From: Variovorax sp.
GTDB lineage: Bacteria > Pseudomonadota > Gammaproteobacteria > Burkholderiales > Burkholderiaceae_C
Assembly: GCA_017744285.1 (NCBI GenBank)
Contig: JAGIBP010000009.1
Coordinates: 1 to 64,000, forward strand
Reading direction: 5' to 3'
DNA length: 64,000 nt
A program made the translations under genes and the position numbers. Below the pieces are notes generated by a model. The model ran no database searches. It was not told the DNA's origin and worked only from the letters and a program-made list of their open reading frames with translations. This document shows, one piece after another, positions 2,095 through 12,979 of the stretch (position 1 is the stretch's first letter; the number at the start of each line of letters is the position of its first letter).

Positions 2095-2388
2095 TTACAG
2101 GCCCTGGGTCGCCACCTCGCCGCGGCGCTCGTCGATGAGTGCCCGCGCCTTCGAGGCCAGCGCCTGGATCGCGCTGACGCCGTCGCGGTGGCGCCCCGAC
2201 AGCATCACGCGGCAACGCAGCGCCGAGCCGTCGTACAGGTCCGCATGCCCGCTGACGTGGCCGTCGTCGCCGGCCGCGTCCACTTCGATCGTGACGTTCC
2301 ATCCCTCGTACTGGAAATCGTGGGATGCCTTGTTCTTGGGGTTGCCTTCCTCCGGCCCCAGGTGGCCGGTGGTTTGGGGGCTCGTCAT
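2095..2388 (-). CDS. Hypothetical small protein (MTSPQTTGHLGPEEGNPKNKASHDFQYEGW...)
   Basis: Minus-strand ORF; internal Met chosen as start. Confidence 0.55.
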   Translation of the reverse strand: MTSPQTTGHLGPEEGNPKNKASHDFQYEGWNVTIEVDAAGDDGHVSGHADLYDGSALRCRVMLSGRHRDGVSAIQALASKARALIDERRGEVATQGL

Positions 2389-2478
2389 TCCATCTCCTCT
2401 GATTGGCTGCTGGCGCACGGGAGCCGGGCGCGTTCAGGTGAGGCAGCAAGCGGCGTGCCCGCCCGCACCGTGCGCGGC

Positions 2479-4186: not shown

Positions 4187-8809
<4,623 letters not shown>

Positions 8810-9290: not shown

Positions 9291-10676
<1,386 letters not shown>

Positions 10677-10770
10677 GGCGTGACCCCTCCTGTAGTGGCT
10701 GGCTGGTTCGTCGCCCTGGCGGGTGAACCGTCCGGCAAGCGTACGTCGAACCGCGCGGCGCGCAAGATGT

Positions 10771-11166
10771 CTAGTCGGGATGGCGCCGTGCGAGCGCGCG
10801 CAATTCTTCTGTCAGCGCGGTCATACGCGCAAGCTGGCGCGCGATGACCTGCCTGGCCTGGGCCTGGAGCGCGGCGTCGTCCGTGGCAGTTTCCAGGAGC
10901 GCCAGGGCCGCGTTGGCCGCGCCGATGGGCGTGCGCAGCGCGTGGTCCAGGCGCAGCAGCTCCTGCCGCAGCGCGTCGGCGCCTCCGTCGTCCGGCGCGG
11001 CGGCCGCCGGGGCCGGGGCGGGCCTGGGTGGCGCCCGCAGGGCCTGCGCCGCCCACAGGGCGGCCGCGAGCAGGCCCAGCGCGGCCAGAGCCGGCAGGCG
11101 CGGCGAGCCCGCGCGCGCCTCGGGGGCGCGCAAGTTTTGCCGCAATAGCTTCCGGATCGTTTCCAT
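10771..11166 (-). CDS. Membrane-anchored DHp-only histidine kinase stub
   Basis: METIRKLLRQ... one TM (LPALAALGLLAAALWAAQAL), H-box-like LDHALRTPIGAANAALALLE; stop follows directly, no HATPase domain. Confidence 0.65.
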   Translation of the reverse strand: METIRKLLRQNLRAPEARAGSPRLPALAALGLLAAALWAAQALRAPPRPAPAPAAAAPDDGGADALRQELLRLDHALRTPIGAANAALALLETATDDAALQAQARQVIARQLARMTALTEELRALARRHPD

Positions 11167-11218
11167 TTTCCGGACTCTATTTGAAAACCAAAGGATTAGT
11201 AATACCAGGCTGCTGAGC

Positions 11219-11233
11219 TGGCACGGGGCTTGC
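11219..11233 (+). promoter_or_regulatory. Sigma54 (-24/-12) promoter candidate upstream of rpoN-like gene
   Basis: CTGGCACGGGGCTTGCG: TGGCACG-N4-TTGC with canonical GG-N10-GC spacing; predicted +1 about 11245. Confidence 0.75.
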
Positions 11234-11245
11234 GCCGCCCGGGCC

Positions 11246-12595
11246 ATGCAGGCTCTTGCACCGCAACTGCGTCCCGCGCAGGTCACGGCGTTCTCACCCC
11301 GGCTGCAGCAGGCGGTCCGGCTGCTCCACCTCTCGTCGCAGGACTATGCCCACGCGATGCAGGCGGCGGCGGAAGACAACCCGTTCCTGGAGGTCGACGA
11401 CGCGCCGCCGCCGGGCCAGGAGGCGTTCGGCCGCTCCGGCACGCTCTCGCGCGGGGCCTCGGTCCGGCACGACGAGGGCGTCGACGCGCTGCAGCGCCTC
11501 CCGGTGGCGGGGTCGCTGCGCCAGCACCTGCACGATCAGCTCGGCGTGCTGCGGCTGGACGAGCGCGAGCGCGTGCTCGCCGCGGCGGTGGTCGAGTCGC
11601 TCGACGACGATGGCTACCTGCGCATCTCGCTGGCGGACATCGCCGCGGTGGTGGGCGAAGCGGGCGAGCCGGCGGAAGCGCTCGAGGGCGCGCTGCAGGC
11701 GGCGCTGCGGCGCGTGCAGTCGCTCGATCCGCCCGGCGTCGGGGCGCGCAGCGTGTCGGAATGCCTGCTGCTTCAGCTTCCCCGCATCGAGGAGCCGCGC
11801 CTGCGCGAGACGGTGCGTCGCATCGCGTCCGATCACCTCGACCTGCTGGCGGCCCACAACTTCCGCCGCATCGCGGCCGAACTCGGCGAGCCGATCGAGG
11901 GTGTTCGCGAGGCCGGCGACCGTATCCGCCGCCTGGACGCGCGCCCGGGCTGGAAGTACGACGCCACGCCCACGCCCTTCGTCACGCCCGACGTCTTCGT
12001 GCGGCGGCAGCGCGGCGCGTGGTCGGCCGTGCTCAACGAGGCGGCGATGCCGCGCGTGAACCTGAACCAGGCCTGCGCGCGCCTCTTCGAGCGGCAGCTG
12101 CAGGGGCGCAACCCCGAGATGGCGGCGTACCTGGAACGGGCGCGCTGGACCGTGCAGAACCTCGCGCAGCGCTCGGCCACCATCCTGCGCATCGCGCAGG
12201 CGATCGTCGCCAGGCAGAAGCTGTTCCTCGACCACGGCCCGATCGCGATGAAGCCGCTCGGCCTGGGCGCCATCGCCGAGGCGGTGGGCGTGCACCCGTC
12301 CACCGTGTCGCGTGCGATCCATCACAAGTACATGGCGACGCCCGCGGGCGTGTTCGAACTCAGGTACTTCTTCTCGCGCGGCGTCCAGCATCGCAGCGGC
12401 GCGGCCACCGCGCCGAGCGCCATCCGGCAACTGCTGCGCGAGCTGATCGAGGCGGAGCCGGGCGGTGCGCCTCTCAGCGACGCGGTGCTCGCGCGCCAGC
12501 TGGCCGAGCAGGGCTTCCAGGTCGCGCGGCGCACGGTGACCAAGTACCGGCAGTCGATGAAGATCGAAGCGGTCGACCGGCGCGGCCGCCATTGA
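11246..12595 (+). CDS. rpoN: RNA polymerase sigma-54 factor (RpoN family)
   Basis: Region I LAPQLRPAQVTAFSPRLQQAVRLLHLSSQDY...; RpoN box VARRTVTKYRQ near the C-terminus; HTH VGVHPSTVSRAI. Confidence 0.93.
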   Translation: MQALAPQLRPAQVTAFSPRLQQAVRLLHLSSQDYAHAMQAAAEDNPFLEVDDAPPPGQEAFGRSGTLSRGASVRHDEGVDALQRLPVAGSLRQHLHDQLGVLRLDERERVLAAAVVESLDDDGYLRISLADIAAVVGEAGEPAEALEGALQAALRRVQSLDPPGVGARSVSECLLLQLPRIEEPRLRETVRRIASDHLDLLAAHNFRRIAAELGEPIEGVREAGDRIRRLDARPGWKYDATPTPFVTPDVFVRRQRGAWSAVLNEAAMPRVNLNQACARLFERQLQGRNPEMAAYLERARWTVQNLAQRSATILRIAQAIVARQKLFLDHGPIAMKPLGLGAIAEAVGVHPSTVSRAIHHKYMATPAGVFELRYFFSRGVQHRSGAATAPSAIRQLLRELIEAEPGGAPLSDAVLARQLAEQGFQVARRTVTKYRQSMKIEAVDRRGRH

Positions 12596-12613: not shown

Positions 12614-12979
12614 TCACCGCTCGAAGGCTTCCTGGCACGGCACGCAGCGCTCGCTGGCGGGCTGCACTTCCAGCCGCGCGCGCGGAATCGGCGCGCCGCA
12701 GTCGATGCACAGGCCGTAGCGGCCCTGGCGCATGCGCTCCTTGGCTGCGGCGATCTGGCGCAGTTCGAGCGCATCGCGGTCCTTCTCGGCCTGGCGGACC
12801 GTCTCGCGCGTGGCGGCTTCGCCCAGGTCGGCGAGATCGCTCACTTCCTCCTGCGGCACCCGCGCGGGTCCGTCGATCGCCTCGCTGTTGATGGCCGCGA
12901 GCTCGGCCGACAGTTCGAGCTCGCGCTTGTCGAGCCTCTTGCGCAAGGCGGCGAGTTGCTTGTCGCTGAGCCCGGTCAT
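12614..12979 (-). CDS. TraR/DksA family zinc-finger protein
   Basis: C-terminal [26 protein letters not shown]; coiled-coil N-terminal part. Confidence 0.88.

Follow-up and report, generated by a model that had tools for sequence, protein, structure and literature searches.

A conserved sigma54 promoter before a second rpoN gene in Variovorax sp. and its probable place in a sigma54 cascade

Introduction

Which sigma54 factor transcribes a gene that itself encodes a sigma54 factor? The question is raised by a stretch of 64,000 nucleotides of the soil bacterium Variovorax sp. (contig JAGIBP010000009.1), hereafter the window, in which a sigma54 promoter element directly precedes an rpoN-like gene. 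Sigma54-driven rpoN genes are already a known kind, and a sigma54 promoter before a second rpoN has an experimental precedent in Ralstonia. A first-pass annotation of the window had described a near-consensus sigma54 promoter with exact GG-N10-GC spacing, and had proposed that a sigma54 holoenzyme, possibly containing the product of the gene itself, transcribes it into a leaderless mRNA or, alternatively, that sigma54 represses an upstream sigma70 promoter.

Results

The features of the locus are shown in Table 1; all gene starts are predictions. The gene beginning at 11246, annotated at first as rpoN-like, encodes a complete RpoN, with activator-interacting, core-binding and DNA-binding Pfam domains all above cut-off. 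Its RpoN box, ARRTVTKYR, is intact, the ARRT and TKYR columns being invariant among 14 sequences. The genome search for another rpoN that had been suggested found rpoN1 on contig C38, where it follows an lptA-like gene. Housekeeping rpoN genes usually lie in such a neighbourhood, and the gene of the window is therefore rpoN2. In a search from which the records nearest the window may be missing, the best named match was Variovorax sp. KK3, in keeping with Variovorax as the most likely genus. Within the genus rpoN2 is sporadic (21 of 61 genomes). In a quick tree of 117 proteins, with several long branches, the same-genus rpoN2 formed one fully supported group separate from rpoN1, and the rpoN2 of Ralstonia and Burkholderia fell in a different branch from that of the window. 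The best plasmid match to rpoN2 was on a 424-kb Comamonadaceae plasmid (53% identity), so the gene can, by this sequence match, travel; the window copy was traced to no plasmid. In one rpoN2 of the genus (genome G004, L013 / L042) the reading frame is broken near the start codon, ahead of the continuing Region I, which could reflect either a sequencing error or genuine damage. Directly downstream of the window rpoN2 lies a convergent gene for a DksA/TraR-type zinc-finger protein (12617-12979, minus strand).

Table 1. Positions of the promoters, activator site and genes described in the window
Feature	Position	Strand	Basis
Sigma54 -24/-12 promoter element of rpoN2, TGGCACGGGGCTTGC	11219..11233	+	Exact consensus, conserved upstream of same-genus rpoN2
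Predicted upstream activator (enhancer) site, GCAAGTTTTGCCGCAA	11130..11145	+	Conserved motif; ~-115 to -100 from predicted start
rpoN2, second sigma54 gene, 449 aa	11246..12595	+	Pfam Sigma54_AID, CBD, DBD; TIGR02395 387 bits; ATG at predicted +2
Sigma54 activator, NtrC-type response regulator: receiver, AAA+ (GSFTGA loop), Fis-type HTH	9291..10676	-	Pfam
Orphan HisKA (DHp) protein, 131 aa	10771..11166	-	Sole Pfam match HisKA, residues 67-128
CheB-CheR-PAS-histidine kinase-receiver hybrid	4187..8809	+	Pfam
Candidate second-type (non-T-26) promoter, GGGCACGCCGCTTGC	2446..2460	-	15.4 bits; before small conserved ORF 2095-2418 (-)

The sequence and coordinates first reported for the element were correct. 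It reads T at 11219, G at 11220 and 11221, then CACG, GGGC and TTG, and C at 11233, with the GG-N10-GC spacing inside TGGCACGN4TTGC that marks sigma54-dependent promoters. It is the sole site without mismatch to TGGCACG-N4-TTGC within the 64-kb window, and a simple weight matrix ranked it top there (19.2 bits versus 15.7 for the runner-up), a score of at least 14.5 bits being reached in 2.8% of random 370-bp stretches. Regulon searches were done by pattern, and in this genome of 4.09 Mb (107 contigs, 69% complete) six exact TGGCACGN4TTGC sites were counted, versus one for the backwards control pattern. With the -12 region placed at C11233, transcription is predicted to begin at about 11245, one base 5' of the ATG.

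Alignment of the regions upstream of orthologues, also suggested by the first-pass annotation, placed the GG-N10-GC element directly before rpoN2 in all 21 same-genus copies, 17 of them exact, three with TGGCATG and one with CGGCACG. Its N4 spacer varies among species, the pattern expected of a functional promoter, and judged by this conservation the element is functional. For the wider Burkholderiales, 80 loci of relatives were scored. With a matrix that ignores position -26, a threshold of 12 bits, which random windows reach in 4.7% of cases, was attained at 25 of the 28 rpoN2 loci in the clade of the window gene and at 36 of 44 in the branch of Burkholderia, Alcaligenaceae and Ralstonia, and a comparable element preceded one of 15 rpoN1 or sole-copy rpoN genes. 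No such element was found upstream of the rpoN1 of this genome, where the best score was 6.8 bits, against the 19.2 bits of rpoN2.

Further upstream, a shared motif, GCAAGATTTGCCGCAA, lies 85-108 bp before the element in 15/15 copies first compared. The best copy at each of these loci has at most four mismatches, and three or fewer occurred in just 0.3% of shuffled upstream regions. In the window the predicted site overlaps the 5' end of the divergent HisKA gene and falls within the ~80-150 bp upstream expected of an enhancer. An additional copy is found 47 bp further upstream in two species. The motif, with 0-2 mismatches, is present at 15 of 25 rpoN2 loci from other genera of the clade, and it did not recur in the rpoN2 loci of the Burkholderia branch.

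The divergent activator has the conserved features of the NtrC type (receiver D52, G-SFTGA loop, Fis-type HTH); over 10 aligned orthologues it is 69-83% identical, and neither Asp52 of the receiver nor most of the HTH varies. Its gene adjoins rpoN2 in divergent orientation in 12 of 14 loci, and the remaining two (G010 and G028) keep the activator site without an adjacent activator gene. Linkage and co-conservation make it likely that this regulator binds the site at 11130. Control of rpoN2 by sigma54 together with an activator is strongly supported at the level of sequence, and the earlier proposal that a sigma54 holoenzyme transcribes the gene agrees with the conserved element, its variable spacer, the conserved activator site and the linked activator gene.

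Between the activator gene and rpoN2 sits the gene for the HisKA-only protein, in which one membrane segment was predicted by eye and which has no ATPase domain. This short form, with an invariant H-box His, was present in 13 of 13 loci read, and homologues occur in L033-L046. It is possibly a phosphotransfer protein, and its role could resemble that of Spo0B or ChpT, phosphotransferases of the DHp type. In 11 of 14 loci a homologue of the hybrid kinase is encoded close to rpoN2, and this kinase is a candidate sensor for the activator.

The predicted leader of the window rpoN2 mRNA is 1 nt long and no Shine-Dalgarno motif precedes the ATG at 11246, as the leaderless reading had it. That reading is plausible for the window, but 17 of the 21 copies start further from the element (26-56 nt past it where readable), many of them with a ribosome-binding site, often an AGGA or GGAG motif. 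The ATG follows 12-14 nt past the element in the other four copies, those of the window, G017, G033 and G062; the last three form one clade, so the near-leaderless form occurs in two lineages. In both, a nearly leaderless transcript is plausible from the sequence; it is not the conserved state. RNA structure at the rpoN2 start codon was not unusual (z = 0.44).

A second promoter type, VGGCACGCCGNTTGCC, differs in having a base other than T at -26, the spacer CCGN and C at -11. Genomes with rpoN2 contain on average 3.24 such sites and those without it 0.75 (Mann-Whitney p = 8e-7), and 33 of 68 sites are no more than 20 kb away from rpoN2 (p ~1e-53), both p values being rough because the genomes were treated as independent and the pattern was picked after examples near rpoN2 had been seen. 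The genes behind the variant sites encode CheB methylesterases, KGG proteins, manganese catalase and hemerythrin. The KGG stress genes, searched independently of the variant pattern, provide a cleaner test: they occur in 14 of 21 genomes with rpoN2 versus 3 of 40 without. When scored ignoring -26, 13 of the 14 KGG genes in the former have a strong element, always with non-T-26 and C-11; two of the three in the latter have none, and in G005, which is without rpoN2, a variant element still precedes KGG. The promoter of rpoN2 itself has T-26 in 20 and G-11 in 19 of the 21 same-genus copies. Counts of TGGCACGN4TTGC per genome, compared by eye, did not separate genomes with and without rpoN2; the variant type alone did. 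Variant-motif matches sampled from genomes without rpoN2 were mostly not before recognisable stress genes. The activator motif is missing before most variant promoters, so this motif lends no support to one activator shared by the whole variant cluster.

The VGGCACGCCGNTTGCC type recurs at L033, L034, L040, L041, L043, L044, L088, L090, L093, L215 and L216, and in the genome under study before a KGG gene at C56:2768. Beside the candidate promoter of this type in the window the activator site was not found. Homologues of the ORF behind it, also preceded by an element of similar kind, occur in two further genomes (L101:540-842 and L100:16849-17181, ~100 aa, ASHxFxYxGWxVxVxLD...SGHADL); the window copy matched nothing in Pfam or NCBIfam. 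A further small protein that is conserved, MNELSSYFAxHPLENPANYLGTDFDPAGAAAYRLRLRxWK, follows the variant promoter type at L041:3547-3795, L042:9329-9571, L044:3914-4165 and L215, and its L044 copy had no Pfam match.

Discussion

We consider it probable that rpoN2 is expressed through a cascade in which RpoN1 and the activator switch on rpoN2, and RpoN2 in turn the stress genes linked to it, with feedback by RpoN2 as a possible addition. In response to a presumed signal, the phosphorylated NtrC-type activator would bind at 11130-11145 and, by DNA looping, open a sigma54 holoenzyme waiting at 11219-11233, and transcription would begin at about 11245. The first holoenzyme would most likely contain RpoN1, which is always present, and hence the circuit would be a cascade; RpoN2 may then add positive feedback. 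The transcript would carry a leader of ~1 nt in the window species and of ~15-45 nt in most relatives.

The closest precedent is Ralstonia solanacearum, in which, according to a lacZ study, all rpoN2 expression was lost in an rpoN1 mutant and rpoN2 is preceded at 63 nt by the element TGGCACAGCCTTTGCA (PMC4371752). In Cereibacter sphaeroides, position -11 helps to tell RpoN1 from RpoN2 promoters (PMC11999139). The precedent and the split between promoter types favour RpoN1 as the starter of rpoN2. They do not decide the matter, since in other genera of the clade the promoter of rpoN2 itself has C-26, and T-26 as a strict mark of RpoN1 was dropped for this reason. Against the cascade also stand the two loci lacking an adjacent activator gene, the variant element before KGG in G005, and the separate branch in which the rpoN2 of Ralstonia and Burkholderia lie. 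Nevertheless, cascade control by RpoN1 is more likely than self-transcription.

That RpoN2 instead serves as the principal sigma factor for its own promoter, forming a positive-feedback switch, is in our estimation unlikely, even if promoter and factor sit together and the rpoN2 promoter of sister genera shares non-T-26 with the RpoN2-linked type. Autoregulation of rpoN has been predicted broadly, beta-Proteobacteria included (PMC12316311), and rpoN2 of Rhizobium etli and Mesorhizobium loti lies within a NifA-activated operon (PMC3538637). However, the silence of R. solanacearum rpoN2 without rpoN1 (PMC4371752) argues against it, and a gene wholly dependent on itself could not start from zero. 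The difference between the Variovorax rpoN2 promoter (T-26, G-11) and the rpoN2-linked promoters (non-T-26, C-11) speaks mildly against autoregulation. From the suggestion that the gene is transcribed by a sigma54 holoenzyme, possibly its own, the holoenzyme is thus retained, and RpoN2 as its reader is disfavoured by the need for rpoN1 in R. solanacearum and by this difference in promoter type.

Repression of an upstream sigma70 promoter by a sigma54 holoenzyme lying over the start codon seems very improbable. A closed sigma54 complex is able to block other polymerases, and the window element is right at the start codon, but activation is implied by the conserved activator site, which lies at the distance usual for enhancers, element and start codon are 12 to 56 nt apart depending on the copy, and a consensus scan of 10700-11500 found no sigma70-like site. 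A chance match with no role, conceivable for a pattern as short as GG-N10-GC alone in a GC-rich genome, was refuted on sequence grounds and is barely credible, because the element precedes every one of the 21 same-genus rpoN2, as in most rpoN2 loci of the order, and is missing before nearly all rpoN1.

Known systems resemble the Variovorax locus in part. R. solanacearum, too, carries a second rpoN that is expressed conditionally and has a -24/-12 element a short way upstream; there, rpoN1-dependence has been demonstrated, the element is TGGCACA...TTGCA at 63 nt from the gene, and the accessible portion of the article reports no activator or activator site (PMC4371752). In the prxS-rpoN2 of R. 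etli and M. loti, a second rpoN likewise depends on a sigma54 promoter together with an activator that binds an enhancer, but these organisms are alphaproteobacterial, the promoter lies upstream of prxS, activation is by NifA, which has a TGT-N10 type site of its own, and the context is symbiotic nitrogen fixation (PMC3538637). The second rpoN of Azoarcus sp. BH72, also betaproteobacterial, has an RpoN motif and is conditionally induced; it is tied to nitrogen-fixing conditions, and the available part of the source describes no leaderless start or linked activator (PMC3916325). In B. pseudomallei, a second sigma54 of the Burkholderiales is linked to a stress gene, RpoN2 being required for the catalase katE, before which there is an RpoN box; target regulation was studied there, unlike the promoter of rpoN2 itself (PMC4745423). 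This link fits a stress role.

A more speculative proposal, which we put forward only tentatively, is that RpoN2 is a specialised sigma54 that reads the VGGCACGCCGNTTGCC dialect (non-T-26, CCGN, C-11) and runs a general-stress regulon (KGG, Mn-catalase, CheB-like, hemerythrin), and that it would be switched on via RpoN1 and a phosphorelay leading from the orphan HisKA-only membrane protein to the divergent activator.

Conclusions

Judged by the literature searched, the new features are the conservation of the activator site, the linkage of an activator and its orphan HisKA partner to rpoN2, a start that is nearly leaderless in two lineages, and a second type of promoter associated with rpoN2. 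The rpoN2 mRNA could also represent a rare case among sigma54 transcripts, one nearly devoid of a leader. Specificity of sigma54 paralogues is known in Cereibacter sphaeroides and little studied in Burkholderiales. The locus offers a genomic model, open to testing, in which two sigma54 factors act in series, the first constitutive and the second switched on by it, with a matching split in promoter sequence. Probably, the other sigma54 turns on rpoN2 and thereby opens a stress-response cascade; the rpoN2 of Burkholderiales is often without a clear phenotype, and the cluster of stress genes points to where one may be looked for.
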